Below are positions 41,627-62,937 of a stretch of DNA of 64,000 bases, piece by piece (the stretch's first letter is position 1; every line of letters starts with the position of its first letter). Both the position numbers and the translations under genes were made by a program. The stretch is from the NCBI RefSeq assembly GCF_002813455.1, contig NZ_PHHE01000001.1, forward strand, positions 6,789,001 through 6,853,000. The letters are read 5' to 3'. This DNA comes from Pseudomonas baetica (GTDB lineage Bacteria; Pseudomonadota; Gammaproteobacteria; Pseudomonadales; Pseudomonadaceae). The notes under the pieces were generated by a model. It did not search any database. It was not told the origin of the DNA and worked only from the letters and a program-made list of their open reading frames with translations.

Positions 41627-44600
41627 TGTTGCGCCTCCAGTTTCAGGGCTTTTGCCGCTTTGCGGGCTTCACCGCGTTCGACAAAGTTACGGATCAGTAC
41701 GTAGAACACTGGCGTCAACAGCAGACCGAAGAAGGTCACCCCGAGCATCCCGGAGAACACCGCCACACCCATGGCGTGACGCATCTCGGCACCGGCACCG
41801 CTGGAGAACACCAGTGGCACCACACCCATGATGAACGCGAAGGAGGTCATCAGGATCGGCCGCAGACGCAGACGGCAGGCTTCCAGCACCGCAGCGAGCG
41901 GGTCGAGGCCTTCTTCCTGTTTATCCTTGGCGAATTCGACGATCAGAATCGCGTTCTTACACGCAAGCCCCACCAGTACGATCAAACCGATCTGGGTGAA
42001 GATGTTGTTGTCACCGCCCGAGATGATCACTCCGGTGATGGCCGACAGCAGGGTCATCGGTACGATCAGGATTACCGCCAGTGGCAGGCTCCAGCTTTCG
42101 TATTGAGCAGCGAGTACCAGGAACGCCAGCAGTACGCACAGAGGGAACACGAACAGCGCGGTGTTGCCGGACAGAATCTGCTGGTACGTCAGGTCGGTCC
42201 ACTCGTAGGTCATGCCGTTCGGAAGTTCTTCCTTGAGCAGTTTCTCGATGGCTTTTTCCGCCTGGCCGGAGCTGTAGCCGGGGGCTGCTGCACCGTTGAT
42301 TTCTGCGGTGATAAAACCGTTGTAGTGCATGACGCGATCGGGGCCCGAGGTGTCGCTGACCTTGATGAAGGTCGCCAGCGGGATCATTTCGCCTTTGTTG
42401 TTGCGCACTTTCAGCTGGCCGATCTGGTCGGATTCGAGGCGGAACTGTTGCTCGGCCTGAACGTTGACCTGATAGGTACGGCCGAAACGGTTGAAGTCGT
42501 TGGCATACAGCGAACCCAGATAGATCTGCAGGGTGTCGAAGATGTCACTGACGGCCACGCCATGGGTCTTGGCTTTTTCCCGGTCGATAGCGGCATCGAC
42601 CTGCGGCACGTTCACGGTGTAGCTGGTGAACAGGCCGGCCAGTTCCGGTACGTTGTGGCTTTTGTTGATGATGTTCATGGTTTCTTTGTACAGCTCGTCG
42701 TAGCCCAGGTTGCCCCGGTCTTCGATTTGCAGACGGAAACCACCAATGGTGCCCAGCCCTTGTACCGGCGGGGGCGGGAAGATCGCCATGTACGCTTCTT
42801 GAATGTTCGCGTACTGGCCGTTCAGGGCGCCGGCAATCGCACCGGCGGACATGCTCGGATCTTTACGTTCGTCGAACGGTTTCAGGGTCACGAACACGAT
42901 GCCGGCGTTCGGGCTGTTGGTGAAGCCGTTAATCGACAGGCCCGGGAACGCGACGGCACTTTCCACGCCTGGTTGTTTCAGGGCGAGGTCGGACATGCGC
43001 TTGATCACATCTTCGGTGCGATCCAGGCTCGAAGCGTCCGGCAATTGCGCGAAGGCCACCAGGTATTGCTTGTCCTGGCCGGGGACGAAACCGGTCGGGG
43101 TGCTGGAGAAACCGAAGAAGGTCAGTACCATCAGCCCTGCATACAGCAGCAGAGCAATGCCGCTGCTGCGGATAACCCGGCGCACGGTGCCGACGTAGCC
43201 ATGGCTGGCCCGATCAAAGAAGCGGTTGAACGGACGGAACAACCAGCCACCGAAGAGCTTGTCGAGCACCTTGGAGAAGCGGTCTTTTGGCGCGTCATGG
43301 CTTCTCAGCAACACAGCGGCCAGTGCTGGCGACAGAGTCAGCGAGTTGAACGCCGAGATCACCGTCGAGATGGCAATCGTCAGTGCGAACTGCTTGTAGA
43401 ACTGGCCGGTGAGACCGGAAATGAATGCCGCCGGAATAAATACCGCACACAGCACCAGTGCCGTGGCAACGATCGGGCCGGTCACTTCACGCATGGCGCG
43501 CTTGGTGGCTTCGACCGGTGTCAAACCGAGTTCGATGTTCCGTTCGACGTTCTCCACCACCACGATGGCGTCGTCCACCACAATACCGATGGCCAACACC
43601 AGGCCGAACAGTGACAAGGCGTTGAGCGAGAAGCCGAACAGGTGCATGACTGCAAACGTACCGATCAACGATACCGGCACCGCCACCAATGGAATGATCG
43701 AGGCACGCCAGGTCTGCAGGAACAGGATCACCACCAGCACCACGAGGATCAAGGCTTCGAAGAGGGTGTGAACCACTGCCTCGATCGAGCCGCGTACAAA
43801 GATCGTCGGGTCATAGACGATGCTGTAGTCCATGCCTTGCGGGAAGCCTTTCTTCAACTCGTCCATCTTCGCCCGGACTTCGTTCGAGATGTCGATGGCG
43901 TTGGAGCCTGGACGCTGGAAGATCGGGATCGCTACAGCGGGCTGGTTGTTCAGTAACGAGCGCAGGGCGTATTGACTGGAGCCCAGTTCAACGCGAGCAA
44001 TGTCTTTGAGGCGAGTGATTTCACCGTTGTCGCCTGCGCGAATGATGATGTTCTCGAACTCTTCCTCGGTAACCAGACGCCCCTGAGTGTTGACCGACAG
44101 CTGGAAGCTCTGGGCATTCGGGGCAGGGGGCGCACCGAGTTGGCCGGCAGCGACTTGACGGTTCTGTTCACGAATCGCGGTGACCACATCAGTGGCGGTC
44201 AGGTTGCGCGAAGCGGTCTTGTTCGGGTCGAGCCAGACACGCAGCGAGTAGTCGCCCATGCCGAACAGCTGCACGTCACCGACACCGCCCAGACGAGCGA
44301 GCTCATCCTTGATGTTGAGGATCGCGTAGTTGGACAAGTACAGCATGTCGTAGCGCTTGTCCGGCGAGGTCAAGTGCACAACCATGGTCAGGTCGGGAGA
44401 AGCCTTGTCGACAGTGATACCGATGCGCGTCACTTCTTCTGGAAGCTTCGGCTCGGTACGGGTCACCCGGTTTTGCACCTGCACCTGCGCGTTGTCCAGG
44501 TCAGTGCCCAGCGCGAAGGTGATGGTCAGGGTGATCTTGCCGTCAGCGGTGGATTGCGAGGACATGTACAGCATGTTCTCGACGCCGGTGATGGCTTGCT

Positions 44601-44802
44601 CCAGCGGAGCGGCCACGGTTTCACCGATGACTTTAGGGTTGGCACCCGGGAAGTTGGCTCGTACCACCACGGTCGGTGGCACGACTTCCGGGTATTCACT
44701 GATCGGCAGCTGGAACAGCGAGATTGCACCGGCGATCAGGATCAGCAGCGACAGCACCGCTGCGAAGATCGGCCGTGAAATGAAGAATTGGGAAAAATTC
44801 AT
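41623..44802 (-). CDS. mexF: RND efflux permease MexF
   Basis: 1059 residues, closely resembling MexF from its first line (FFISRPIFAAVLSLLILIAG) through NRVTRTEPKLPEEVTRIG, and with the proton-relay pair in GIVVDDAIVVVENVERN. In P. aeruginosa MexEF-OprN exports chloramphenicol, fluoroquinolones, trimethoprim and quorum-sensing precursors; the same class is expected here. It follows mexE by 15 bases. Confidence 0.95.
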   Translation of the reverse strand: MNFSQFFISRPIFAAVLSLLILIAGAISLFQLPISEYPEVVPPTVVVRANFPGANPKVIGETVAAPLEQAITGVENMLYMSSQSTADGKITLTITFALGTDLDNAQVQVQNRVTRTEPKLPEEVTRIGITVDKASPDLTMVVHLTSPDKRYDMLYLSNYAILNIKDELARLGGVGDVQLFGMGDYSLRVWLDPNKTASRNLTATDVVTAIREQNRQVAAGQLGAPPAPNAQSFQLSVNTQGRLVTEEEFENIIIRAGDNGEITRLKDIARVELGSSQYALRSLLNNQPAVAIPIFQRPGSNAIDISNEVRAKMDELKKGFPQGMDYSIVYDPTIFVRGSIEAVVHTLFEALILVVLVVILFLQTWRASIIPLVAVPVSLIGTFAVMHLFGFSLNALSLFGLVLAIGIVVDDAIVVVENVERNIELGLTPVEATKRAMREVTGPIVATALVLCAVFIPAAFISGLTGQFYKQFALTIAISTVISAFNSLTLSPALAAVLLRSHDAPKDRFSKVLDKLFGGWLFRPFNRFFDRASHGYVGTVRRVIRSSGIALLLYAGLMVLTFFGFSSTPTGFVPGQDKQYLVAFAQLPDASSLDRTEDVIKRMSDLALKQPGVESAVAFPGLSINGFTNSPNAGIVFVTLKPFDERKDPSMSAGAIAGALNGQYANIQEAYMAIFPPPPVQGLGTIGGFRLQIEDRGNLGYDELYKETMNIINKSHNVPELAGLFTSYTVNVPQVDAAIDREKAKTHGVAVSDIFDTLQIYLGSLYANDFNRFGRTYQVNVQAEQQFRLESDQIGQLKVRNNKGEMIPLATFIKVSDTSGPDRVMHYNGFITAEINGAAAPGYSSGQAEKAIEKLLKEELPNGMTYEWTDLTYQQILSGNTALFVFPLCVLLAFLVLAAQYESWSLPLAVILIVPMTLLSAITGVIISGGDNNIFTQIGLIVLVGLACKNAILIVEFAKDKQEEGLDPLAAVLEACRLRLRPILMTSFAFIMGVVPLVFSSGAGAEMRHAMGVAVFSGMLGVTFFGLLLTPVFYVLIRNFVERGEARKAAKALKLEAQQ

Positions 44803-44817
44803 CGGAGTTGTCGTCCC

Positions 44818-46071
44818 TTAACCGCGTGGGGGCGTAGCAGCCAGCTTCACAACCGCACCGGACGCACCTTTGGCGGGGGCGACTTTGGGCAGGTTGCTGG
44901 CTTCCAGCGCTTGACGTTGTTGAGCGAGAGCCGCGATGGTTTGTTCGCTGGCCATCGGCACCACTTCAGGGGTGACCGGTGAGCCAGGACGAACCCGTTG
45001 CAGACCCTTGACGATGATCGTGTCGTCCTTGTTCAGGCCGGTGCGCACGATGCGCAGGCCTTCGATCTTCGGACCGAGTTCGACGGGGCGATAAGCGGTT
45101 TTGTTGTCTGCGTCCATCACCAGCACGAACTTCTTGCCCAAGTCGGTACCGACGGCTTCGTCATTGATCAGCATGGCGTTGTAGGTGCCGCTGCCGACCA
45201 GTTTCAGCCGTGCGTACAGACCCGGTGTGTAGGTGCCATCGCTGTTGTCGAACACCGCGCGACCACGGATGGTGCCGGTTTTCGGGTTGACCTGGTTGTC
45301 GACGAAGTTCATCTGGCCCAGGTGCGTGTTACCGTCTTCATTGGACAGCCCCATGTACACCGGGGTTGTAGCGCCGCGCTGACCCTGACGAGCGAGCTGG
45401 GTATATTTGAGGAATACACGTTCGTCAGCGTCGAAGTAGGCGTAGACCTTGTCAGTGGAGACCACGCTGGTGAGCGCGGTGGTGTCGGCGGTCACCAGGT
45501 TGCCGGCGGTGATTTCCGCGCGGCTGACACGGCCGCTGATCGGCGAAGTGACGCGGGTGAAGCTCAGATTCAGTTTGGCCAGATCCAGTTGCGCTTGCAG
45601 GGCGCCCACGGCGGCGCGGGCTTCCTGTGCGGCGCTAGTGCGCGAGTCGGCCAGTTCGGCGGAAATGGCGTTGCTGGCACGCAGACGTTCGCCACGACCG
45701 GCTTCGTTTTCACTGCGAGTGGCGTTGGCGCGCGATTGTGCGACCAGGGCTTCGAGGCGGCGCACCTCAGCCTGGAACGGACGCGGATCGATCTGGAACA
45801 GCAGGTCACCTTTCTTCACCAGCGCGCCTTCAGTGAAGGCCACCTGGTCGATCTGACCGGAGACCCGAGGACGGATTTCAACGGTTTCCGGCGCTTCGAG
45901 GCGCCCGGTAAATTCGTCCCACTCGTTGACCGGTTGTTCGAGCACTTTGGCCACGCTGACTTTCGCAGCGGGCAGGGTGGCGGCAGTCTCCGGAGTCTTG
46001 CCGCAGGCGCTCATCACCAGTACGGCCAACAGGGCCAACGGGAAGCGCAAATGTTTGAGTGACTGTTCCAT
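44818..46071 (-). CDS. mexE: RND periplasmic adaptor MexE
   Basis: 417 residues. The lipobox MSAC gives Cys23; lipoyl halves (FTEGALVKKGDLLFQIDP, VTSPISGRVSRAE), an alpha-hairpin and a barrel domain follow in the usual order. ATG 46071 was chosen over an upstream start 30 codons earlier because it begins the lipoprotein signal. Its upstream region has no mexT-like gene, but carries a perfect 8-base-arm palindrome at 46156-46172, 84 bases before the start, as candidate operator. Confidence 0.93.
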   Translation of the reverse strand: MEQSLKHLRFPLALLAVLVMSACGKTPETAATLPAAKVSVAKVLEQPVNEWDEFTGRLEAPETVEIRPRVSGQIDQVAFTEGALVKKGDLLFQIDPRPFQAEVRRLEALVAQSRANATRSENEAGRGERLRASNAISAELADSRTSAAQEARAAVGALQAQLDLAKLNLSFTRVTSPISGRVSRAEITAGNLVTADTTALTSVVSTDKVYAYFDADERVFLKYTQLARQGQRGATTPVYMGLSNEDGNTHLGQMNFVDNQVNPKTGTIRGRAVFDNSDGTYTPGLYARLKLVGSGTYNAMLINDEAVGTDLGKKFVLVMDADNKTAYRPVELGPKIEGLRIVRTGLNKDDTIIVKGLQRVRPGSPVTPEVVPMASEQTIAALAQQRQALEASNLPKVAPAKGASGAVVKLAATPPRG

Positions 46072-46155
46072 GGATGCATCCGCCAATGTATTGAAGATGG
46101 GCGGATGATGCTCGGCAGGGGTGGTATGGCACGAATCGAATGAAGCAAAGGTAAC

Positions 46156-46172
46156 TATCATTCGGAATGATA
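46156..46172. promoter_or_regulatory. Perfect palindrome upstream of mexE
   Basis: TATCATTC-G-GAATGATA, 8-base arms around one base. It is not the Fur pattern (half-sites inverted) and does not fit the MexT-box as I know it. Likely a dimeric regulator site for mexEF-oprN. Confidence 0.5.
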
Positions 46173-46304
46173 TAAGACCGATGCCAGCCCTCTAGAATGC
46201 GCCTTTCGTTAGGGTGCTATCAATATCCTTAATGAAAGTTTCATGCGTGAGGGCCTGTCGTCACGTGGCGCACCCATAAGAGCGCGCGCCACTTCCAGAA
46301 CGAA

Positions 46305-46436
46305 TCAGAAGTTGTACTTGACGCTCGTCATGATATTGCGCGGTGCGCCGAAAACGCCGTACAGACCGGACTGGCTGAATGACTCGCGATCAAACACATC
46401 GTTCAGGATTGCGGCTATTGCGAGAGAAAACAGGGT
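46305..46436 (-). pseudogene. 3' remnant of a TonB-dependent receptor gene
   Basis: On the minus strand an open stretch encodes about 44 residues ending at TGA 46305-46307: ILNDVFDRESFSQSG, LYGVFGAPRN and a terminal SVKYNF. This is the hallmark C-terminal strand set of TonB-dependent siderophore receptors (N-x-F-D-R/K, G-x-P-R-N, final aromatic). Nothing of the plug or the rest of the barrel is present upstream, where the accessory cassette begins, so the receptor gene was deleted or replaced at this junction. Confidence 0.7.
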
Positions 46437-46551
46437 TGATTTGTGGCAACATGCCATTATTGTTGGCTGCTATTTCTCCTCAATGTCTTCGAGGTCGTCA
46501 AGCGTCTCGCTGCGGTTATCCAATACTCTGATTCATTACAAGGACCGTTAT

Positions 46552-48021
46552 ATGAACCAAGCCGTGAACGAACGGCAGTTTGCCCATCTGTCGCTGGACG
46601 TGGAGGGCATAACCGTTGCTTCCACGAACCTGGAAAACGTATTCAACGCCAGGAAGATTCTGTCCAGCGACGGCAGCTGTATATTCGGCAACCTGCGTTT
46701 GCCTGAATATCAACGACCCTATCGCTGGAGCGAAGAACAGCTCGGACGGTTGCTGGATGATTTACGGGATTTCTTCGGCACCGATGCACCGGGCCACGAT
46801 TTCTACCTCGGCAGCCTCATCCTGCACCAGCAGGGTGGCGACGGCCGTGAGCGGGGCACTCTGAATATCATCGACGGCCAACAGCGCATCACCAGTCTGG
46901 CGTTGCTGCATTGCCTGCAGAAAGGTGACAAGGGTGCACCAGCGTTGGAATTCAACTCGCCAGAAAGCTACCGGCGTATCCAGCACAATCTTCGTTGGCT
47001 AAAGCAGCAGACGTTGCCGCGGATTGACTTTTCACGCATCAACGTAACGCTGGTCGTCACGCGTCGAGAAGACGATGCCTATCGCTTTTTCGAGACTCAG
47101 AACACTTCCGGTGTTCGTCTGGGCGGCGCGGACATCATCAAGGCTTATCATTTGCGCAGCGTGACGGCGGCCACGCAGAATGATTTCGCGCGGACCTGGG
47201 AGCGCCTCGGCGATCTCAAGCCACTGGTAGCAACGTTGATGAAATCCCGGCATTGGCAAAGCTTGCGCTGGCGAGATGTTGCCAGTGATCGTGACCCGCT
47301 GCTCGAACGCAAGCAGATCGTCACGGAGCTCGCCGAGCGAACGCTGGCCAATACCCCCGACATTGCCTATCGGCCCTTGCAGGTGCACCGCGACGCCTGG
47401 GGCAAGGACATGCATAGCGTTCAGCCGGGGTACGCCATGCGACAACCCTTGGGTTGCGGGGTTAACACGATGCATTACGTCGCCTATTTCCATGGTCTGC
47501 GCCAAGCCTTGCTCGATGTCGGTGATGCGCCGCTCAAGGGCTCGTTCGCCTACTACTACAAACGTTTGTCCAGGGACGCGTGCGGCAGCATATTCCTGAG
47601 CAGGGCATACGAATGCGCTGTGCTGATGTACGCCAGCCAGTTCGGTACCGCCCGGTTGCTCGAAGTCAGCCTGTGGATGTTCCGGGTGATCTTTTCGCTG
47701 CGCCTGATCAACGACGTGAGCGTGCGGGAAAGCGGGGTTCAGGCGCACATCAGGGACAATCCATTGATGGACTGGATCGCCAGCAGCCATAGCGAAGATG
47801 AGCTATTGGATTATTTGCGCCGCTATAAATACAAGCCAACCGGCAAGGGACTCGATAAACACAGTATCAAGAAGCGCTTCGTAGAATCGGTTTCCGTCAC
47901 GCTTCACTTGAATCTGCCGTGGCCCGATCCGACCCATGTTGCCGCTGAATACGATGCCGAGCTGTGTGCCGCCATCAAACGCGTCAGCCTTGCTGACATT
48001 GCCCGTCAAGGAGGCAAATGA
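46552..48021 (+). CDS. DUF262 family protein (first of pair)
   Basis: 489 residues. The DUF262 (ParB/Srx-like nucleotide-handling) domain is N-terminal: LPEYQRPYRW at 50-59, FYLGSLIL near 84-91 and the signature IDGQQRITSL at 107-116. A second conserved element, FETQNTSGVRLGGADIIKAY, follows. The C-terminal half is helical and shows no DUF1524/HNH nuclease motif. The frame is open 103 codons upstream through the receptor remnant; ATG 46552 with AAGGA before it was chosen. The next DUF262 gene overlaps by four bases. In GmrSD and SspE systems DUF262 couples NTP hydrolysis to modified-DNA recognition. Here a sensor/regulatory partner role is inferred. Confidence 0.85.
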   Translation: MNQAVNERQFAHLSLDVEGITVASTNLENVFNARKILSSDGSCIFGNLRLPEYQRPYRWSEEQLGRLLDDLRDFFGTDAPGHDFYLGSLILHQQGGDGRERGTLNIIDGQQRITSLALLHCLQKGDKGAPALEFNSPESYRRIQHNLRWLKQQTLPRIDFSRINVTLVVTRREDDAYRFFETQNTSGVRLGGADIIKAYHLRSVTAATQNDFARTWERLGDLKPLVATLMKSRHWQSLRWRDVASDRDPLLERKQIVTELAERTLANTPDIAYRPLQVHRDAWGKDMHSVQPGYAMRQPLGCGVNTMHYVAYFHGLRQALLDVGDAPLKGSFAYYYKRLSRDACGSIFLSRAYECAVLMYASQFGTARLLEVSLWMFRVIFSLRLINDVSVRESGVQAHIRDNPLMDWIASSHSEDELLDYLRRYKYKPTGKGLDKHSIKKRFVESVSVTLHLNLPWPDPTHVAAEYDAELCAAIKRVSLADIARQGGK

Positions 48022-49985
48022 TGAGTGCTCAAGTCCAGTCCTGTGTACAGACGGCCGCGACGCTGTGCGAGCAAGGTATATCGCTGACTATTCCCTGCTA
48101 TCAACGTCCGTATGTCTGGCCCAGCAGCGACGTCAATGACCTGCTGGAGCAGATCATCCTGGCGAGCGAGCGTGATGGCGACGATCAACCCGCGCAAGCG
48201 CATTACTTTTTCGGCACGGTGCTGACCAGCGAAGTGCTCCCAGGCTCCAATTCTGATGCTGCCATCGTCTATGAAATCATCGATGGCCAACAACGAATGA
48301 CGACATTGATGGTGCTGGCGCTTGCTCTCTGTTCGTTGCTGCCATCGTCACCGCTGCGCGCACTGGTGGTCCTGGGCAAGGCGCCGAGACTTACCTTCAA
48401 TATTCGTGAAGAAGTCCAGGCCCGGTTGAGTGCATGGGCGGATTTGACGGCGGAGCCTGAGCCGGATGAAAAGGAGGCTGCCAATCCCTACCTCATACAC
48501 CTGAGCGCTGCCCGAAAAGTAGCCTGCGACCGATTCAAGCGGTTGCAGGCCGAGGGGGGCGAGCAAGCCCTTGAGCGCGTCGGGGAGTACTTGTTCAACC
48601 GCGTGACCTGGGTCAACAATGTCATGCCCGCGGGCATGGACCTGAACAAGCTGTTCGCGACGCTGAACACCAGCGGCCTCCAGCTTGAACAGACAGATAT
48701 CCTCAAAGCTCGGTTGATGAAGAGCATCAAGCAGAACCGTGCCACGTACGAAGGCATCTGGCAGGCCTGCGAAGACATGGGAAATTACTTCGAGAAAAAC
48801 CTGCGCGACGTCTTCGCGGGCACCCGTTGGGGGGCCTTGAGGTTCACCGATCTTGCGGATCACTCCATCGAGCATTTTTCGCTGGAGCGCCCTGCAGACG
48901 GCTACCCGAAAGGCCGCACGATCAGCGAAATACTTTCGATGAAGGTGCAGGACGAGGCGGTTGAAGAGCCCCGCGAGAAGGATGAGGCACGTTATCAGTC
49001 AGTGATCAGCTTTGGTTTGTTGTTGATGCATGCCTATCGAATCTATCGGCACTCTCAGAACAGGTCTGATATCGGCTCCAGGCTCAACGACAGCAACCTC
49101 AATGAGTGTTTCGCAAGCTTTGTCGAAACCGCCACTGCGGGGCACGCCAAGGCGTTCATGGAATGCCTCTGGAATGTGCGCTTTCAGTTCGACCGCTGGG
49201 TCGTCAAGTGGGTGCGTCTGGGTGAAGAAGATGAACGCACCTTGCGCCTGAGCACCATCAACAATCGAAGCAAAGGCAATGGTCCCGATTGGCGCACACC
49301 CACTCAGGATGCCTGCGACTTGAGCCAACTGCAGAGCATGCGTTACCTCACCGGTGAGCGCAGTGCCCAGTATTGGCTGACACCGTTTCTGGGCAGGCTG
49401 GTCGACTCGCCTGATATGAAGGAACATCAAGTACTGGCAATGCTCGAACAGATCGATAACCAGCTCTCGCTCACCGAAATGACCCAGAAGGAAGCGAGCT
49501 ATCGGCTGTTGTCCAGCGACACCGCCGAGCCTGTGTCCATCGCAACGACCGTGGCTTATCTCAAGGAAGCCAATGGCACCAGTTTCGAGCACTACTGGTT
49601 CCAGAAACTGGAATACATTCTGTGGCGCGAACGCCGCGCGTTCAAATGGCTTGACCTTGAAAAGTTGCTCCAGTACAGGATTACCTCGAAGAACTCGGTC
49701 GAGCATGTGCATCCGCAAAACGAAGAGTTCCGCAAGACATTGCCTGACGAGCTGCTACACGGATTCGGCAATCTGGTTCTGCTCAGCCCGGGTGAAAACT
49801 CCTCGTATAGCAACCTGGCGGTCATCAAGAAACAAGCGGCTTTCCGCGCCAAACCGAAGTACGACTCGTTGAAGCTTGCGCACATGTTTCATGTGCTGGG
49901 CAAGGGCGACAAATGGGGCCATGAGCAGATCGACAAGCATGCGAAAGCGATGCTGTTGCTCATCGAGGCACACTACGACAGATAA
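48018..49985 (+). CDS. DUF262 + DUF1524 (HNH) protein, GmrSD/SspE-like nuclease
   Basis: 655 residues. The N-terminal DUF262 has IPCYQRPYVW (25-34), YFFGTVL and YEIIDGQQRMTTL (85-97), then FATLNTSGLQLEQTDILKA. The C-terminal DUF1524 has SVEHVHPQ (560-567, probable catalytic H563), GFGNLVLLSPGENSSYSN (582-599) and the second Asn/His set expected for the His-Me finger fold. Together these are the parts of a type IV, modification-dependent restriction enzyme. It starts at ATG 48018 (or 48021), overlapping the previous stop, so the two DUF262 proteins are translationally coupled and probably interact. Confidence 0.85.
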   Translation: MMSAQVQSCVQTAATLCEQGISLTIPCYQRPYVWPSSDVNDLLEQIILASERDGDDQPAQAHYFFGTVLTSEVLPGSNSDAAIVYEIIDGQQRMTTLMVLALALCSLLPSSPLRALVVLGKAPRLTFNIREEVQARLSAWADLTAEPEPDEKEAANPYLIHLSAARKVACDRFKRLQAEGGEQALERVGEYLFNRVTWVNNVMPAGMDLNKLFATLNTSGLQLEQTDILKARLMKSIKQNRATYEGIWQACEDMGNYFEKNLRDVFAGTRWGALRFTDLADHSIEHFSLERPADGYPKGRTISEILSMKVQDEAVEEPREKDEARYQSVISFGLLLMHAYRIYRHSQNRSDIGSRLNDSNLNECFASFVETATAGHAKAFMECLWNVRFQFDRWVVKWVRLGEEDERTLRLSTINNRSKGNGPDWRTPTQDACDLSQLQSMRYLTGERSAQYWLTPFLGRLVDSPDMKEHQVLAMLEQIDNQLSLTEMTQKEASYRLLSSDTAEPVSIATTVAYLKEANGTSFEHYWFQKLEYILWRERRAFKWLDLEKLLQYRITSKNSVEHVHPQNEEFRKTLPDELLHGFGNLVLLSPGENSSYSNLAVIKKQAAFRAKPKYDSLKLAHMFHVLGKGDKWGHEQIDKHAKAMLLLIEAHYDR

Positions 49986-50005
49986 TCGTCAGACCATGAC
50001 GAGTT

Positions 50006-50043
50006 GCATTCATTTCGCGTCAGTTTCGACGCGAAATGAATGC
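50006..50043. repeat. Perfect 16-bp hairpin between the two halves of the cassette
   Basis: GCATTCATTTCGCGTC (50006-50021), a six-base loop AGTTTC, then the exact reverse complement (50028-50043), 21 bases after the DUF262-DUF1524 stop. No T tail follows, so it is not a textbook terminator. It could stall transcription, form a structured RNA, or be a protein-binding site. Confidence 0.8.
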
Positions 50044-50116
50044 TGCGGACACGACGACCGATTGTTAATCGGGGGCATTGGTATGACACCTGCGCCCGGT
50101 TTCTCCGGAAATAAAT

Positions 50117-50142
50117 CTGTCCCGTTTACCTGTCCCGTTTAC
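50117..50142 (+). repeat. Tandem 13-bp direct repeat
   Basis: CTGTCCCGTTTAC occurs twice back to back, about 125 bases before the ATPase start. Confidence 0.75.
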
Positions 50143-50265
50143 CCTTGGATTGATGCAGTGATTGCCCAGGTAATTGGTGGATGAACCTGTGCTATAACGC
50201 GATTTGTGCTTCAAAGACGAGACTTTCAGCTTCCTGTCCTCCCTCCTTTTATGATCGGGTTTTCG

Positions 50266-52317
50266 ATGATTATTGTTGATCGACATAGCGTGCCGCCGCC
50301 CCCGGATTTGCTTGATTACCATCGCCGTGAAATAGAGCGGTTGAGGCCGATTTTTGAGGCGGCGGATGGCGAGTATTCACAAAAAGCCATTGATTTCCGG
50401 ATGCCACGAGCCCTGCAGGAGCAGGTGCGTAAAACGCTCATCAAACTGTTTAGAGGCAAATGCGCATTTTGCGAACGTGACGCTAAGGAAATGGAGCGTT
50501 TTCGCCCCCGTTGGCGTGCCGCTCGAGCTGATGGCAGCATCGACCTGCAACACTATTGGTGGTTGGCAAATGACTGGGAAAACCTATACCTGTGCTGTCC
50601 TAGATGTAATGCCAGGAAGATGAACCTGTTTCCTGTGTTGGGGCCGGTTGCTTCTCCCCTAGGCGATAGGCAGTCCCTGATAGACGAACAACCACTGTTG
50701 TTAGACCCGTGTCAGGACAATCCACAAGAACATCTGAAGTTTCTCAGCGACGGCCAGGTAATCGCCCTCACCGAACGGGGGGCGGCAACGATCAAGGTAT
50801 TTCAGCTAAATGAAGAGGGCCTGGTAAAGGCCCGTCTCACGCGCGCTTCGCGGATCATCGAAAGATGTGAGACGTTGTTGTCACTGGAATATCTGCCGCG
50901 AATCGACGAGACGGCGATTGCTCGTTTCTTTTCTCCCAATATGCCGCTCTCCGCCATCACACCCGCCGTACTCGAGGCGTTTTTCTCATCAGGATCTGCG
51001 GTGCCTGTGATGCCTCCAGAACCACCGGTAGCACCGCCAGAGGCGATGAAAGCAATACCCGATGCCATCTGGCTTGAGGCCATTGAAATCCACAACTTCA
51101 AGGTGATCAGTGACCTCAAGATAGAATTTCCTCCATTGCAGAGTAACGGTGAACACACTATCCAGCCCTGGCTTATGGTGCTTGGTGAGAATGGCGTCGG
51201 AAAGAGCAGCCTGCTCCAGGCCATCGCTTTGACCATGAGGCCTGCAAAGGAGCTTGAGGAAGAGGACGCAAGCACTTGGCTGCGCAAGGGTAGGGGGATT
51301 AAAGATGGCTTTGTTCGCCTGACGTTTTCGGACGGCAGTCAGCGAGAGTTGACCTTCAAAAAAAACAGCAAGAAGTTTGGCATCACAGGTGACGTGCCAG
51401 ATTTGCCGGTTCTGGCCTATGGTTCCACTCGGCTGCTGCCCGATGCCGATGCTGCCGCACCTGTCGCGCCGCGCCGTGTTAGTGTCCTGAACTTGTTCAA
51501 CCATATCCACCCGCTTGTTCAGGTTGAACGGTATCTCTGCAGCAAGAAGATCAGCGAGGCGCAATTCACGCTGTTGGCCACCAGTCTGAAGGATCTATTG
51601 CCGGTCAGTTCGGATGCCTCGCTCATTCGCAAGCGGCGACACATAGAAAGCAAAATCGACGGCAGTGCGGTGTCGCTGAGTGAGTTGAGTGACGGGTACA
51701 AGTCCGTCCTGGCTTTGGCGATGGACATTATGTTCCATTTGACCAGCAGCTCATTTGACATGGAGTCTGCACAAGGCGTGGTCATGATTGATGAACTTGA
51801 ACTTCATCTTCATCCGCGCTGGAAAATTCAGCTCGTCGACCGCTTGCGTCAGTTGTTCCCTCGCGTGCGCTTTATTGTCAGCACCCACGATCCGTTGTGT
51901 GTTCAGGGTTTGAAAAATGGCGAGTTGTGGGTCATGGCCAAGCACCCCGAAGACAAGCGCTTCATTTTCGAGCCGATCGATGTCCCGCCCGGTACCCGGG
52001 CAGATGAGATCCTCACCGGCCCGTGGTTCGGCCTTCAATCGACGATTGATACAGAAACGTTGATGCTCATGTCTGAGCACAGCGTGCTCTTGCAGAAGAA
52101 TGAGCCAGAGTCGAAACGCCTCGCTGAACTGGAAGCCACGCTTCGTCAGCGCATGGTTTCGTTCGGGAGTACGCGTGCCCAGCGTGCGGCACTGGCGGCT
52201 GCTGCAGTGCTCGATGTCGGTATGTCGGAATCTCAGGCGAATCAGTTGATCAGGCATCGTCTGAAAAACATCCAGAAAGGCGATTCGGATCAGCGACAGG
52301 GGCGCGAAGATGCTTAA
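50266..52317 (+). CDS. SMC/ABC-like ATPase with degenerate N-terminal HNH module (PtuA-like)
   Basis: 683 residues from ATG 50266 (MIIVDRHSVPPP); an in-frame ATG at 50251 and GTG at 50206 are alternatives, none with a good ribosome-binding site. N-terminal zinc/HNH-type module: CAFC (66-69), MERFRP (76-81) and DWENLYLCCPRCNARK (103-118). The His normally in the E-H-x-x-P step is Arg78, so cleavage by this module is doubtful. The ATPase has Walker A GENGVGKSS (307-315), the signature-like LSELSDGYKS (471-480), Walker B VVMIDELELHLHPRW (505-519) and a switch His in VSTHDP (541). The next gene overlaps by eight bases. PtuA-type ATPases control an HNH effector in Septu. Confidence 0.85.
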   Translation: MIIVDRHSVPPPPDLLDYHRREIERLRPIFEAADGEYSQKAIDFRMPRALQEQVRKTLIKLFRGKCAFCERDAKEMERFRPRWRAARADGSIDLQHYWWLANDWENLYLCCPRCNARKMNLFPVLGPVASPLGDRQSLIDEQPLLLDPCQDNPQEHLKFLSDGQVIALTERGAATIKVFQLNEEGLVKARLTRASRIIERCETLLSLEYLPRIDETAIARFFSPNMPLSAITPAVLEAFFSSGSAVPVMPPEPPVAPPEAMKAIPDAIWLEAIEIHNFKVISDLKIEFPPLQSNGEHTIQPWLMVLGENGVGKSSLLQAIALTMRPAKELEEEDASTWLRKGRGIKDGFVRLTFSDGSQRELTFKKNSKKFGITGDVPDLPVLAYGSTRLLPDADAAAPVAPRRVSVLNLFNHIHPLVQVERYLCSKKISEAQFTLLATSLKDLLPVSSDASLIRKRRHIESKIDGSAVSLSELSDGYKSVLALAMDIMFHLTSSSFDMESAQGVVMIDELELHLHPRWKIQLVDRLRQLFPRVRFIVSTHDPLCVQGLKNGELWVMAKHPEDKRFIFEPIDVPPGTRADEILTGPWFGLQSTIDTETLMLMSEHSVLLQKNEPESKRLAELEATLRQRMVSFGSTRAQRAALAAAAVLDVGMSESQANQLIRHRLKNIQKGDSDQRQGREDA

Positions 52318-53161
52318 GCTCGTACGTCCACCGATAGCCGCGAATTTCGGAACGAAGACCCAATCAACAAAAAAGGCCGTCGCCAAGGCAGTGGCGAATG
52401 GGGCGGCTGTCACTTTCTCGAACCTGTGGTCGAGTTACAAAAGAGATTTCAGCCAGGCGCAGTACGGCAGATGCGGATACTGCGAAGGCCAGGTATTAGG
52501 CCTTCAATATGGTGACGTCGAGCATATCCAGCCGAAAGCAGAGGTTCATACACTGGTAGACGAGCCAGAGGACTGGGGCAAAGAGGTTCCCTGGAGCTCG
52601 TCGGTGGAGGGACGCAAGAGAAAAAGTAACGTCATCAAGCCAGGGTATTGGTGGCTAGCTTATAGTTGGGACAATTATTTACTCAGCTGTCAGATCTGCA
52701 ATCAGCAGTGGAAGGCTAATTTCTATCCGGTTAAAGGCGTGCACAAGGTATCCCCCACGCAAACCTGCACACCGTTACTGCTGTCACCGTTTGATAAGCA
52801 TTTTCAGGCGCAGATGCACTTCACCTATGGCCGGCTGGGTGAAATCCGCGCGCTCACTGATGAAGGCAAGGCGACGATTGCCACCTGTGGGTTGGACCGC
52901 CCCAGCCTTCGACTGGCGCGCTATAAAATCGCGCGGGCTACCCATGAGCATCTTGATGAGATTGCACGCGATGTCACTGAACGAGATGTCCTGCGAGTGC
53001 TGGAGTACATTGCCCACGACGGTGCTGAGTACAGCCCCTACTGCGGAATGGTGAGGGTGATTTTCTTTCAGCGTACAGAGATGCAATGGGATGATTTGTA
53101 CGATTTGATCGCCCGTCTGAAGGTGAGTGGCCATGCTGATCGTTCATTGTGCGACTGCTGA
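52310..53161 (+). CDS. HNH endonuclease (PtuB-like)
   Basis: 283 residues. Intact HNH/zinc fold: CGYC (55-58), DVEHIQPK (69-76) with the general-base His72, WDNYLLSCQICNQQWK (120-135) with the second Cys pair and Asn residues. The C-terminal half is helical without a known domain. It starts at ATG 52310 inside the end of the ATPase gene and should be translated together with it. It is the likely toxic effector of the ATPase-HNH pair. No other gene follows before sotB. Confidence 0.85.
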   Translation: MLKLVRPPIAANFGTKTQSTKKAVAKAVANGAAVTFSNLWSSYKRDFSQAQYGRCGYCEGQVLGLQYGDVEHIQPKAEVHTLVDEPEDWGKEVPWSSSVEGRKRKSNVIKPGYWWLAYSWDNYLLSCQICNQQWKANFYPVKGVHKVSPTQTCTPLLLSPFDKHFQAQMHFTYGRLGEIRALTDEGKATIATCGLDRPSLRLARYKIARATHEHLDEIARDVTERDVLRVLEYIAHDGAEYSPYCGMVRVIFFQRTEMQWDDLYDLIARLKVSGHADRSLCDC

Positions 53162-53434
53162 TATTGGGTCGCAGGTCACTGCTTTTAGTCGGCATTCTCT
53201 TCAAGGTTTTTCGGTCAGACTTTGACTGAACCAGAACAACAGCCAAGGGACGCGGCAAATACATCGAGCGCTTCGCCCCTACTGGGCAAGTCACCATTTT
53301 TTTATAGTAGAGTCGCCATCGAACCACCTGTCGTCTGGAGCTTTTCGGCAATTGGTGTACAAAAAACGACAGATGGGCACAGATTGCGTGCGGACAAGTA
53401 CGCGCAATCGTTGACAGAGTAATACGACTTTTAA

Positions 53435-54619
53435 ATGAGCAATCCTACCGCTACAACCAATGGCAGTTGGTACCCGGTCATTGCGCTGGCACTGGCCGCG
53501 TTTGTGTTCAACACCACCGAGTTTGTGCCTGTCGGCCTGTTGAGTTCGATCGGCAACAGCTTCGACATGTCGTCGGCTCAGGTCGGATTGATGCTGACCA
53601 TCTATGCGTGGGTGGTGTCGCTGACGTCGCTGCCGATCATGTTGCTGACGCGTAACGTCGAGCGGCGCAAGCTGTTGATCGTGCTGTTCGGGATGTTCAT
53701 CGTCAGTCACATCATGTCGAGTCTGGCGACAAGCTTCGCCATCTTGCTGGTGAGCCGGATCGGTGTGGCGCTATCCCATGCGCTGTTCTGGTCGATCACG
53801 GCCTCGCTGGCAGTGCGCCTGGCGCCACCGGGCAAACAGGTTCAGGCCTTGGGCTTGCTGGCAACCGGTACTTCTCTGGCGATGGTACTGGGCATTCCCC
53901 TCGGTCGGTTATTGGGCGAGGCCATGGGCTGGCGTACAACGTTCATCGTGATCGCAGGCTTGGCGGCGACGCTGGTGTTGTGTCTGGCGAAGGTTCTGCC
54001 GTTGCTGCCCAGCCAGAACTCCGGCTCGCTCAAAAGTCTACCTGTGTTGTTGAAACGGCCTGCGCTGGTGGCGATCTATATCCTGACAGCTCTGGTCGTG
54101 ACGTCACAGTTCACGGCCTACAGCTACATCGAGCCCTTCGTCCTGACCGTGGCGGGCATGAGCGGCGATGTGGTGACGCTGCTTCTGTTGTTATTCGGCG
54201 GCGCCGGCATTTTCGGCTCGCTGCTGTTCAGCTACCTGCACAGTCATAACCCGCAGCGCTTTCTGATTGTCTGCGTGTCGTTGCTCATCCTGTGTCTGGC
54301 TTTGCTGTTGCCTTTGAGCGGTCAGGTGTCGTACCTGGGCGTGGTGAGTGTGTTCTGGGGGATGGCAATCATGGGGTTCGGGCTGGCGCTGCAATCGAAA
54401 GTGCTGGTGCTGGCGCCGGACGCCACCGACGTGGCGATGGCGCTATTTTCCGGGATCTACAACATCGGCATCGGCGGCGGAGCACTGGTGGGTAGCTGGG
54501 TAGGCATTCAGTTCGGCTTCGCTTACATCGGAGTCGTTGGCGGGATGCTGGCGGCGGCGGCACTGTCGTTTTACTGCCTGTCGATTTATCGCAGCACTCG
54601 GCCCGGGGCTTCGGTTTGA
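53435..54619 (+). CDS. sotB: Sugar efflux transporter SotB (MFS)
   Basis: 394 residues, twelve spans, with strong resemblance to E. coli SotB/Yde[54 protein letters not shown] and [20 protein letters not shown]. It exports arabinose and related sugars or IPTG in E. coli. The 273-base gap before it (53162-53434) shows no gene and should hold its promoter; the cassette ends within this gap. Convergent with the LysR-type gene. Confidence 0.9.
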
Positions 54620-54645
54620 GCCTACGGGCTATTCGATGAGTGGAA

Positions 54646-54663
54646 GGGCTGACACGTCAGCCC
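54646..54663. terminator. Hairpin between convergent sotB and LysR genes
   Basis: GGGCTGAC and GTCAGCCC form a short stem with a tiny centre, just outside the LysR stop. No strong T run, so weak. Confidence 0.35.
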
Positions 54664-54665
54664 GA

Positions 54666-55580
54666 TCAAAGACTGTCCGGATCCCCAAAAAACATCTGAA
54701 TTCGCGACCGTAACCAACGCTCACCCGGATCATTATCCTGCGAGCCACGCCACGCCATGTGCAGCTCAAACGTGCGCGTGGGCAGCGGCGGATCTTCCGC
54801 CCGGACCCCGCCAGCCGCCGTTAACGCTTCCGCCGTGTAATCCGGCACGGTTGCAACGATGTCGGTGCCGGCGAGCAACGTGCTCAAGCCGTTAAACTGC
54901 GGCACAGCCAACACCACGTGCCGTTTGCGCCCGAGTTTTTCCAGTTCCTCATCGATAAAGCCACTGAGGTCGCCGGCGAACGACACCAGCGCATGCGGGC
55001 GGGCGCAGTAGTCGTCGAGGCTGAGCGGGCCTGGCACGGTGTCGGCGCGCAGCAGCTTTGGCGCACTGCGGCGCAAGACCTTGCGCTTGGCGTTGGCCGG
55101 CAGATCGGTGGTGTAGCTGACGCCAATCGAGATTTCGCCGGAGGCCAGAAGGCCTGGCATCAGGATGTAATTGACCCGACGTACGACCAGCACAATGCCT
55201 GGCGACTCAGCGCGCAGGCGTTTGAGCAGCATCGGCAGCAGGGCGAATTCGACATCGTCGGACAAACCGATGCGGAACACCGAGGTGCTGGTGGCTGGGT
55301 CGAATTCCGCCGCACGGCTGACGGCGGTGGAAATCGAGTCGAGGGCAGGCGAGAGCAGGGCGAAGATTTCCACCGCGCGGGCGGACGGTTCCATGCTGCG
55401 CCCGGTGCGTACGAACAGAGGATCATCGAACAGGCTGCGCAGACGCGAGAGCGCCGCACTGATCGCCGGCTGGCCGAGGAACAATTTCTCGGCGGCACGG
55501 GTCACACTGCGTTCGTGCATCAATGTTTCGAATACGATCAACAGGTTCAGGTCGACACGACGCAGGTCATTACGATTCAT
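54666..55580 (-). CDS. LysR family transcriptional regulator
   Basis: 304 residues. The N-terminal winged helix (DLNLLIVFETLMHERSVTRAAEKLFLGQPAISAALSRLR, about 9-48) is followed by a two-lobed substrate-binding domain. ATG 55580 has AGGA before it; a longer frame begins 21 codons upstream but would add a hydrophobic leader foreign to the family. It is divergent from the zinc-less alcohol dehydrogenase/quinone reductase gene, the classic arrangement of a LysR regulator with its target. Confidence 0.9.
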   Translation of the reverse strand: MNRNDLRRVDLNLLIVFETLMHERSVTRAAEKLFLGQPAISAALSRLRSLFDDPLFVRTGRSMEPSARAVEIFALLSPALDSISTAVSRAAEFDPATSTSVFRIGLSDDVEFALLPMLLKRLRAESPGIVLVVRRVNYILMPGLLASGEISIGVSYTTDLPANAKRKVLRRSAPKLLRADTVPGPLSLDDYCARPHALVSFAGDLSGFIDEELEKLGRKRHVVLAVPQFNGLSTLLAGTDIVATVPDYTAEALTAAGGVRAEDPPLPTRTFELHMAWRGSQDNDPGERWLRSRIQMFFGDPDSL

Positions 55581-55767
55581 CTGGAGTCCTGGCAGAGTCA
55601 TCAAGCTTGACGAGGGCGACCATATGATAACAATGGCCGGCATGAATCTTACGGGGAAAGGCTGGTACTCTGCACCGGAAAATTCAGCTTTACTGCGACG
55701 GTGGCAGCAGTTTTTTCAAGGATTGTCCCGATACCGCCCATACCGCGGAATCAATGACAGGCATGTC

Positions 55768-55791
55768 GACTATTAATAGCCACTGATAGTC
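55768..55791. promoter_or_regulatory. Candidate LysR-type operator
   Basis: GACTAT and ATAGTC lie 12 bases apart and include the perfect palindrome CTATTAATAG (55770-55779), in the divergent gap between the LysR and oxidoreductase genes. Confidence 0.35.
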
Positions 55792-55850
55792 TTGGGTCAA
55801 AAGCCCAGATAGAGTTCAGGGCATTAGAGGTTACTTTGACGAGGTTTGCG

Positions 55851-56873
55851 ATGTCCCGCACGATCCGTTTTCACAAGTTTGGTCCGGCCGAGGTGCTCAA
55901 ATGCGAAGAGCATGCGGCCGCTCAGCCAGGTCCTGGCGAAGTGCAGGTGCGTGTCGAAGCCATCGGCATCAGCTGGTATGACATTCTCTGGCGTCAGAAC
56001 CTGGCCTCGTCCCAGGCACGTCTGCCATCGGGCCTTGGCCATGAAATGGCGGGTGTGGTCACAGCGGTCGGCGACGGCGTCGATGATCTGTCGGTTGGCG
56101 ACAAGGTTGCCAGTTTTCCTGCCGAGAGCCCGAACGACTATCCGGTTTATGGCGAGCAGATCGTTCTGCCACGTACCGCGTTGACCCGTTATCCGGACGT
56201 CCTGAGCCCGATCGAAGCCAGCGTGCATTACACGCCGTTGCTGATTGCCTATTTTGCCTATGCCGATCTGGCGCGGGTCAAACCCGGGCAATTTGCCTTG
56301 GTGACAGACGCCAGCCATTGCGCCGGCCCATCGTTTGTTCAGTTGGGCAAGGCATTGGGTGTCCGGGTGATTGCCGCGACCAAAACCGCCGACGAGCGCG
56401 AGTATCTTCTGTCTCTGGGGGCTGAGAAGGTCATCGTCACGGAGGAGGAGGATCTGCTGATGCGGATCAACAAGATCACCGATAACCGTGGCGTCGATGT
56501 CGTCTTCGACGGCCTTGGCGGTCCACAGATGTCGCTGCTCGGTGACGTCCTCGCCCCACGCGGAAGTCTGGTGTTGTACGGTCTGCAAGGTGGTAATCAG
56601 ACGCCGTTCCCGGCCTGCGCAGCGTTTCAGAAGAACATTCAGTTCTTTGTGCACTGCATCGGCAATTTCACCGGCAAGCCGGAACTGGGCATTACTCAGG
56701 ATCACGTCGCGCTGCAACGAGCCCTGCGTGATATCAACCAGTTGACCGCCGATCGTGTGTTGCTACCGCTCAAGACCCGGGTCTTCCCGTTCAACGAGTT
56801 TGTCGAGGCGCACCGCTACATGGATGAATGTCCGTGTCGCGAACGGGTTGCGCTGCAAGTCGAACTGGCCTGA
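55851..56873 (+). CDS. Zinc-independent medium-chain dehydrogenase/quinone oxidoreductase-like protein
   Basis: 340 residues of the MDR superfamily. GroES-like half: FGPAEVLKCEE, GEVQVRVEAIGIS, LGHEMAGVVTAVGDGV, DKVASF. Rossmann half: GQFALVTDASHCAGPSFVQLGKALG and GVDVVFDGLGGPQM. The structural four-Cys zinc lobe is absent, as in quinone oxidoreductases. ATG 55851 follows GAGG; a TTG at 55836 is an unlikely alternative. Probably reduces an electrophilic carbonyl or quinone under control of the divergent LysR regulator; substrate unknown. Confidence 0.85.
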   Translation: MSRTIRFHKFGPAEVLKCEEHAAAQPGPGEVQVRVEAIGISWYDILWRQNLASSQARLPSGLGHEMAGVVTAVGDGVDDLSVGDKVASFPAESPNDYPVYGEQIVLPRTALTRYPDVLSPIEASVHYTPLLIAYFAYADLARVKPGQFALVTDASHCAGPSFVQLGKALGVRVIAATKTADEREYLLSLGAEKVIVTEEEDLLMRINKITDNRGVDVVFDGLGGPQMSLLGDVLAPRGSLVLYGLQGGNQTPFPACAAFQKNIQFFVHCIGNFTGKPELGITQDHVALQRALRDINQLTADRVLLPLKTRVFPFNEFVEAHRYMDECPCRERVALQVELA

Positions 56874-56885
56874 TCCTGAATTTAC

Positions 56886-56909
56886 AGAGTCCGTGGTCTC
56901 ACGGACTCT
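56886..56909 (+). terminator. Terminator-like hairpin after the oxidoreductase gene
   Basis: AGAGTCCGTG-GTCT-CACGGACTCT, a perfect 10-base stem starting 13 bases after the stop, followed by a pyrimidine-rich tail rather than a clean T run. Confidence 0.6.
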
Positions 56910-57059
56910 CCTGTCTGCCTTTCCAAAAACGAGTGCTCTCTGGGTAAATTGCCCGGGGCCGGTCAGCAACTGAACCGGTTTTTGCCCTCGTTCTGTATCT
57001 TCCAATCGCCCACCAAGCCCTGATAATTGAATGATTACTTTCATCTCAAGGAATGAGCT

Positions 57060-57287
57060 ATGGCTGTGCATTCTATTTGTTGTGTTCGATATAAATCGGT
57101 CGTTAATTCGGGTGGCGATAACTTCTGTTTAAGTGTTGTAGGCATGTTCCGAAACTGCGTCTCTTTTTTTTGTACTCACTTGGCGTCGGACTGTGTCGGA
57201 AGTTTCCTAGGAGCATTTATTTGCTCGAAAAAACTCAGTAAAGACAAGGCCTTGCGTGGCAGTCTGTGGGTGTCTGAGAGCGCGTGA
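57060..57287 (+). CDS. Possible small Cys-rich protein, 75 aa
   Basis: An open frame with AAGGAATGAGCT ahead of its ATG, a good ribosome-binding site. It encodes seven cysteines and a weakly hydrophobic middle (NFCLSVVGMFRNCVSFFC). It lies alone in a 548-base gap (56874-57421) between the oxidoreductase and the unrecognised 486-residue gene. No family recognised; it may be a chance frame. Confidence 0.3.
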   Translation: MAVHSICCVRYKSVVNSGGDNFCLSVVGMFRNCVSFFCTHLASDCVGSFLGAFICSKKLSKDKALRGSLWVSESA

Positions 57288-57327
57288 CAGCTTAAGTGTT
57301 TCAAATAACTACGCATTTGTAAGTGTT
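57130..57327 (+). promoter_or_regulatory. Three TAAGTGTT direct repeats, candidate MocR-type operator
   Basis: TAAGTGTT at 57130-57137, 57293-57300 and 57320-57327 (the last two 27 bases apart), upstream of the gene pair that ends with a MocR-type regulator. Members of that family such as GabR bind direct repeats. Confidence 0.35.
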
Positions 57328-57421
57328 AGCATTCGAGCGTCTATCTATTACTAATGAATTTTTGCGTAACTGCTGTCTCGGGTTACGTAATATGAACATT
57401 TCGATACCGGGTGAAGTACCG

Positions 57422-62139: not shown

Positions 62140-62937
62140 TCAAAACGCCCGATGCACCGCATCGGGCGTTTTGTATTTCAGCGACAGATGAGGCCGCTCG
62201 TTGTTATAGATCTGCACCGACTCGTCCACCATCCGGATGGCATCTGCAAAATCTTTGGGCCGATGCAGCATTAACTCGTTTTTCAAAATTCCATTCACAC
62301 GCTCAGCCAATGCATTTTGGTAGCAGTCGTAGCCATCGGTCATTGAGCAGGTGATGCCGTACTTGGCATGCAGCCGCTGATAAAGCTCGGAGCAGTATTG
62401 AACGCCTCTGTCCGAGTGGTGCACCAAGTGTTGTTCCGTTGTCCGCTGCTTCAGGGCTTTGTTGAACGCCTGGATCACCGATTCGGTGTGCAAGCTTTCA
62501 TGGACATGGTGACCCACGATTTTTCGAGAGTACGCATCGGTGATCAAACTCAGATAAGCCACACCCGTTTGCGTTGGTAAGTAGGTGATGTCCGCAACCC
62601 ATACTTGCTCTGGTGCCTTGGCGACTACCTGAATCGGCCCATCTTTGAGCAGGTTTGGATGCCGGCGAAAGCGATGATGACTGTCTGTTGTTTTGTGATA
62701 GGCCCGCCTGCGAGGAACCAGTTCGCGCCGATCTCGCAAGATATTGAATAAACGGTCTCGACCAACCTTTACGGACATTTCTGGCTCAGTGCGCATTAGA
62801 TTGTGAAGTTTTCGGGTGCCAAGGCGCGGTTGCCTGAGTCGCTTTTCCCTCACGAATCCCATCACTTCCTGAGCATGACGGGCCCGGGCATCACACGCCC
62901 GGTTGCGCTTGTAATAAGCCTGACGGGAAATCCCCAT
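62140..62937 (-). CDS. IS3-family transposase OrfB (DDE catalytic part)
   Basis: 265 residues from the first ATG. The integrase core has the DDE triad in VADITYLP, HHSDRGVQYC and ALAERVNGILKNE, with the usual K/R seven residues after the Glu region. It is normally made as an OrfAB fusion by -1 frameshifting at the A6G site at 63003-63009: after slippage the frame reads KKAIRQVLSQEQIQGLSISR and runs into MGISRQAYY. Confidence 0.92.
   Translation of the reverse strand: MGISRQAYYKRNRACDARARHAQEVMGFVREKRLRQPRLGTRKLHNLMRTEPEMSVKVGRDRLFNILRDRRELVPRRRAYHKTTDSHHRFRRHPNLLKDGPIQVVAKAPEQVWVADITYLPTQTGVAYLSLITDAYSRKIVGHHVHESLHTESVIQAFNKALKQRTTEQHLVHHSDRGVQYCSELYQRLHAKYGITCSMTDGYDCYQNALAERVNGILKNELMLHRPKDFADAIRMVDESVQIYNNERPHLSLKYKTPDAVHRAF

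Follow-up and report, generated by a model that had tools for sequence, protein, structure and literature searches.

A TgvAB-like and a Septu-like gene pair side by side in the variable mexT–mexE interval of Pseudomonas baetica

We analyzed a window of 64,000 nucleotides (the whole stretch of DNA considered here; contig NZ_PHHE01000001.1, positions 6,789,001 to 6,853,000) from the 6.9-Mb single-contig genome of Pseudomonas baetica, in which the list of open reading frames places four genes in one orientation on the + strand. These genes very probably represent two independent anti-phage systems lying side by side in the variable interval between mexT and mexE: a predicted TgvAB-like, GmrSD-family type IV restriction pair (genes 1 and 2) and, judging from its sequence, a Septu variant (genes 3 and 4), in which a degenerate HNH domain on the ATPase is accompanied by a separate HNH protein with an intact motif. 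The analysis shows the domain content, the conserved motifs, where module 1 (genes 1 and 2) ends on the DNA, the independent distribution of the two pairs in the sample and the dead/live asymmetry of the HNH domains; the antiphage activity, the substrates, the contacts between subunits and whatever part the dead HNH plays are inferred. The genes and their flanks are as follows:

44821–46161, − strand: left flank, mexE (NCBIfam NF045904, 752.8 bits; cut-off 714)
46552–48021, + strand: gene 1, TgvA-like, DUF262/GmrSD_N plus DUF7834 (Pfam; the ORF opens at 46243, the ATG is at 46552)
48018–49985, + strand: gene 2, TgvB-like, DUF262/GmrSD_N plus DUF1524/GmrSD_C nuclease (Pfam)
50266–52317, + strand: gene 3, PtuA ATPase with an N-terminal degenerate HNH (AAA_21, PADLOC, homologue alignment and fold; the ORF opens with a GTG at 50206)
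52310–53161, + strand: gene 4, PtuB-like HNH with an intact E71-H72-xx-P75-K76 (PADLOC PDLC00339 and motif)
54669–55643, − strand: right flank, mexT, LysR family (PDB 6l33, ‘MexT protein’, E 3.1e-114)

The four same-strand genes claimed in the initial annotation are all present and have high-scoring domain matches in Pfam and PADLOC. Gene 1 (ORF 46243–48021), for which the ATG at 46552 chosen earlier was kept, matched GmrSD_N/DUF262 at 100.8 bits and DUF7834 at 105.3 bits, with no nuclease domain found by Pfam, and gene 2, which overlaps it by 4 bases, matched GmrSD_N at 89.8 bits and GmrSD_C/DUF1524 at 66.7 bits; the proposed DUF262 pair with a DUF1524 nuclease in its second member only is thus borne out by Pfam. 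Gene 3 (ORF 50206–52317) matched AAA_21 at 61.8 bits and the PADLOC PtuA model PDLC00292 at 528.5 bits, its N-terminal part matches PtuB models in PADLOC, and its probable start is the ATG at 50266 because homologues open with MI.V.R. Gene 4, overlapping gene 3 by 8 bases, had no match in Pfam and matched the PADLOC PtuB model PDLC00339 at 136 bits. These domain scores are too high to be chance. The suggestion of a Septu-style pair of ATPase and HNH nuclease holds as regards the PtuA and PtuB matches in PADLOC, with one correction for the HNH of gene 3, whose sequence at the place of the catalytic EHxxP is ERFRP. The gap between the two pairs measures 220 bp to the gene 3 ORF start and 280 bp to the ATG at 50266.

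In both sequence and fold, the ATPase of gene 3 matches the PtuA proteins found in Septu and in the retrons Ec78 and Ec83, and its GENGxGKS, IDELxxHLHP and HDP stretches (Walker A, Walker B and H-loop) are kept, while gene 4 has H72, N122 and N131, making it a separate PtuB HNH with the catalytic His and Asn. Septu type I (PtuAB), as described in two reports (PMC8565338, PMC13096335), likewise consists of a PtuA ATPase and a separate EHxxPK PtuB HNH encoded by overlapping genes, with no reverse transcriptase. Compared with the PtuA of Septu type I, the gene 3 product, at ~680 aa, has a degenerate HNH added at its N terminus; nine short PtuA proteins (442–474 aa) from the same genus lack an N-terminal HNH. 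Because PADLOC PtuA models of 726–773 aa span the HNH-PtuA architecture, the fusion is already catalogued, even if its dead site is undescribed. A scan of genome contigs and a search of phage records (E ≤ 1e-15) returned nothing for gene 3, and 311 other genomes of the class (E ≤ 1e-40, three candidates per genome) yielded one match, to the ATPase part and with 2 internal stops.

We compared the two kinds of HNH domain across 38 loci. Thirty of them belong to the genus; the remaining 8, taken from 26 plasmid records that matched, come from Gluconobacter, Klebsiella, Priestia, Rhizobium (two), Paracoccus, Roseovarius and Janthinobacterium. A fused HNH-PtuA was found in 28 of these 38 loci, and a separate HNH gene was present in the same locus in all 28. 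In gene 3, Arg98 (ORF numbering) occupies the column of the catalytic His, and Asn126 and the C86/C89 and C131/C134 pairs are kept. Across the 28 fused domains, this column holds R in 19, Q in 4, L in 2 and H in 3, with a His one residue earlier in 4 others; EHxxPK is absent from every one, and the Pro and Asn columns are kept throughout. The four zinc-binding Cys do not vary. Among the separate HNH domains (39 rows picked by phmmer, less L169, which is a 5’ fragment of a fused gene that has been disrupted), EHxxPK and the first Asn occur in 38/38 and the last Asn in 37/38. Since EHxxPK is absent in 28/28 fused domains in which Pro and Asn are kept, and since, in an E. coli Septu that cleaves tRNA-Tyr, substitution of PtuB H75 or N91 abolishes immunity (PMC13096335), the fused HNH is probably a pseudo-nuclease under constraint, and that of gene 3 is probably not an active nuclease.

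Alternatively, the PtuA-fused HNH could be active through another residue, in which case module 2 (genes 3 and 4) would comprise two working nucleases. The retention of Pro and Asn in 28/28 together with the invariant zinc Cys, and the finding that 7 of the 28 have a His either in the catalytic column or in the position preceding it, speak for such activity; the distribution of EHxxPK, found in none of the fused but all of the separate domains, and the loss of immunity upon PtuB substitution in an E. coli Septu both weigh against it, and we regard it as unlikely, although less so than the other alternatives considered below. Returning to an inactive fused domain, the sequences suggest a dead/live nuclease pairing in a Septu-like pair. 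The PtuA with its degenerate HNH would hold and gate one live HNH, that of gene 4, which, upon sensing of an infection, would cut either DNA or tRNA. Nicked DNA is the reported target of another Septu PtuAB (PMC11555353). It is conceivable, at a little short of an even chance, that the fused-HNH Septu forms a distinct subtype with obligate dead/live pairing, in which the inactive HNH on every PtuA would give the one active PtuB a docking site, a means of binding substrate or a safety device. The dead/live HNH pairing is new, with no description of a dead fused HNH on PtuA found in the open-licence literature, covered in part by titles or abstract openings, and the coexistence of a live, separate HNH with a degenerate one carried by the ATPase is relevant to the control of PtuB by PtuA.

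The probably inactive HNH, together with its zinc-binding Cys and its Asn, is retained not just in Pseudomonadota but also on at least one plasmid of the Bacillota. In a weakly resolved HNH tree (95 columns, 29 fused rows), most fused domains grouped together and five fell among the separate ones. A single origin of the fused HNH was considered and set aside, as the tree needs 3 changes and a single origin appears in 0% of the bootstrap trees, although the well-supported branches are compatible with one. Because the fused domains form no single group in this weakly resolved tree, the fused-HNH arrangement may have arisen more than once. The structural model of gene 3 is poor (mean pLDDT 63.8), and nothing here rests on its HNH geometry. 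On the Priestia megaterium plasmid, the fused-HNH Septu pair (4010–8163 of L164) is followed closely, on the opposite strand, by a gene for a retron-type reverse transcriptase.

In the other pair, 22 aligned rows of gene 1 show no variation at Q54-R55, D108GQQR112 or F180xxxN184, and in gene 2 the same holds across 9 rows for Q29-R30, D89GQQR93, F213xxxN217, H563, N585 and N594. Both DUF262 domains therefore have complete QR, DGQQR and FxxxN motifs, and gene 2 additionally has the H...N...H/N His-Me motif. The solved relatives of genes 1 and 2 found by profile are SspE and a DndI entry, along with a weak match of gene 1 to 7p9k, which we take to be BrxU. The model of gene 1 (mean pLDDT 80.9) gave six Foldseek matches at E ≤ 0.001, all to SspE or the DndI entry and with low TM-scores. 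SspE, DndI and BrxU are single-chain DUF262-DUF1524 proteins; genes 1 and 2 contain the same domains but distribute them over two proteins, one without DUF1524.

That two-protein layout is also the one of TgvAB from Vibrio cholerae VPI-2, a member of the GmrSD family, in which a DUF262 protein is followed by a DUF262-DUF1524 protein in adjacent genes, QR, DGQQR and FxxxN are found in both and H...N...N in the second, and both proteins and both DGQQR motifs are required (PMC11411939). Unlike TgvAB, genes 1 and 2 do not lie inside a type I restriction operon, and gene 1 has a named DUF7834 tail; the likeness to VC1767/VC1766 is one of layout and motifs. No description of TgvAB together with Pseudomonas was found in the open-licence papers searched.

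A different specificity would follow if genes 1 and 2 sensed phosphorothioate marks, as SspE and DndI do, rather than the sugar- or methyl-modified cytosines of TgvAB and BrxU. The nearest solved structures, by profile and by fold, are indeed SspE and the DndI entry, but these are simply the relatives for which structures have been solved, the two-gene layout is that of TgvAB, and no Ssp or Dnd modification genes lie within the mexE–mexT interval, so that phosphorothioate sensing seems distinctly improbable. As a TgvAB-like pair, the two DUF262 subunits would sense modified DNA and jointly turn over NTP, and cutting would fall to gene 2 alone, via its DUF1524 His-Me domain. Against plasmid records (E ≤ 1e-40), gene 2 had one match. 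In G217 (L037/L050), a TAG interrupts the gene 2 homologue, which is present as two pieces.

The initial annotation had left the choice between a new four-gene composite and two adjacent systems, and had proposed checking co-occurrence across the genus. We scanned 298 genus genomes (E ≤ 1e-20) with 3–4 candidates scored per genome, such that the counts are lower bounds: gene-3-like matches occurred in at least 27 genomes and gene-2-like matches in at least 19, and the one genome with both was that of P. baetica itself, compared with 1.72 expected by chance (P(≤1) = 0.47). As far as sampled, the pairs thus coincide nowhere else, the outcome that the initial annotation had named as refuting its proposal; a weak association between them is still compatible with a sample of 298 genomes, which is small for rare genes. 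In the same genomes, a gene-1-like match lay upstream of gene 2 in 19/19. Scanning named genomes with the gene 2 alignment, we found a DUF262 partner upstream in 79 of the best 80 of 390 relatives, the exception being L161, which has no such partner; L095 has a 2.5-kb gap. The median length of the stretches around these 80 loci is 21.7 kb, with 9 of them shorter than 8 kb, and none contained a gene-3- or gene-4-like match; with 16 PtuA seeds, no PtuA-like match was detected within the fetched stretches of 90 gene-2 loci (the 80 named and 10 from the genus). In the reverse direction, neither gene 1 nor gene 2 had a match (E ≤ 1e-5) in the 10 larger Septu stretches (L061–L070), and G199 carries another fused-HNH Septu at the same mexT–mexE site without genes 1 and 2.

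The limits of the DNA segments that make up the interval were derived from comparisons with relatives:

46534–50041, no strand: module 1 as a DNA unit, genes 1 and 2 plus most of the palindrome (90.6% identity to L051 in G256)
50006–50043, no strand: 16-bp palindrome with a 6-base loop, after gene 2 (RNA fold z −7.4)
50042–53282, no strand: stretch bound to hold module 2, from module 1 to the MFS cargo (blastn against L051, L072 and L073)
53283–54622, + strand: third cargo, an MFS transporter gene (53435–54619) with its upstream stretch (82% identity to L072 in G011 and L073 in G029)

Because the copy in G256 spans 46534–50041 and nothing beyond, with nothing else of 44000–57000 aligning in blastn within the 19 kb fetched there, genes 1 and 2 behave as a self-contained unit, a TgvAB-like pair that in Pseudomonas moves as a segment with sharp borders. 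The right limit of module 1 falls 2 bases short of the end of the palindrome, which is perfect here; its copy in G256 has diverged yet folds (z −4.4 versus −7.4, two sequences only), which suggests a possible, kept transcript end of module 1. Genes 3 and 4 must lie within 50042–53282, since module 1 ends to the left and the MFS stretch starts to the right. As module 2 lacks a close relative (the best in the genus has 34% identity), its DNA limits are bounded from outside only. The G011 and G029 stretches had no match to genes 1–4. In relatives sharing the flanks, identity ends at 46223–46245 on the mexE side and returns at 54668–54670 at mexT, and three cargos appear to be stacked in between. 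Within the gap separating the pairs, positions 50109–50145 read AAATAAATCTGTCCC followed by a doubled CTGTCCCGTTTAC, and the doubled form occurs once in the genome. A search of the 220-bp gap against the P. baetica genome returned the gap itself, the palindrome within it in reverse and a single 18-base stretch at another place; a repeat element between the pairs was dismissed, as these matches support no repeat family. No separate promoter for module 2 was detected in the gap, the scan of 46000–53600 giving 3 promoter-like sites where 3.8 were expected.

Co-occurrence and DNA limits together decide against a composite four-gene defense, in which the DUF262 pair would sense modified DNA and the PtuA/HNH pair would complete or amplify the response. 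The shared orientation, the spacing of 220–280 bp and the lack of any gene in between would suit one operon, but the arrangement does not recur (1/298 genus genomes, its own), none of the 90 other gene-2 loci has a PtuA-like match, and genes 1 and 2 stand alone in G256 at 90.6% DNA identity; we reject the composite on these grounds, with very little probability left to it. The four-gene system, put forward as possibly new and as having no described counterpart for the whole set, was a false lead that is now removed, and each pair has its own described relative, TgvAB (PMC11411939) and Septu (PMC8565338); two adjacent systems is the part of the earlier proposal that stands. Even less probable is that genes 3 and 4 belong to a retron (Retron I-A, or Septu type II) with a reverse transcriptase, since despite the PtuA fold and HNH partner in common with Ec78 and Ec83, no reverse transcriptase is encoded between mexE and mexT, no Rfam match falls in 44000–58000, and both proteins score below the curated retron cut-offs of NCBIfam (PtuA 121.8 of 500, PtuB 25.5 of 150).

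The two independent pairs occupy an interval that varies widely among relatives. A close mexE (E ≤ 1e-240) was identified in 95 genomes, of which we kept the 86 with mexT on the same contig and dropped 9 with it on another; the mexT–mexE gap is 209–325 bp in 17 of the 86, 0.87–30.2 kb in 52 and > 31 kb in 17, compared with 8,507 bp here (interval 46224–54669). The interval from the efflux operon to the neighbouring LysR gene is thus a variable insertion site. Beyond mexT lies a divergent zinc-type dehydrogenase gene, which would fit mexS.

This mexT–mexE insertion site is new, with no account of it as an insertion hotspot or genomic island found among the listed titles or abstract openings of the open-licence literature. 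It resembles cDHS1 and cDHS2 of P. aeruginosa, which also consist of conserved core genes around variable cargo including defense systems (PMC10250203). Those loci have other flanking genes and are located elsewhere, with mexT and mexE mentioned 0 times in the main text of that paper, and, in contrast to them, much of the cargo at mexT–mexE is not recognized as defense: 10 large proteins from 7 other such intervals had weak PADLOC hits (best 28.5 bits), and two cargo proteins of G019 had none and one of 17.7 bits. A ‘pure defense hotspot’ was rejected, given these weak matches and the non-defense cargo elsewhere. Nevertheless, the gap holds defense systems in several strains and is a simple place to seek more.

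At the same site, G199 carries Hachiman (HamA 871.5 bits, HamB 835.1 bits; L066, 8441–15549) beside a different fused-HNH Septu pair, G002 carries JetA and JetC of Wadjet II with a GajB-like helicase (L075, 3067–15187), and the cargo of G021 includes HipA. In G072 (L052, 3564–11823), a gene 1–2 pair of 75% identity and a PDC-S06 protein (1131 bits) lie beside mexT, the mexE side being outside the view. Elsewhere in the window, a low-GC stretch at its start contains an autotransporter with a pertactin domain (226–2661), an integrase-core (rve) gene lies near its end (62140–62937), and a 519-aa ORF (57323–58882) without a match in Pfam, NCBIfam or PADLOC lies ahead of a gene for a MocR-like regulator, both being kept in relatives.
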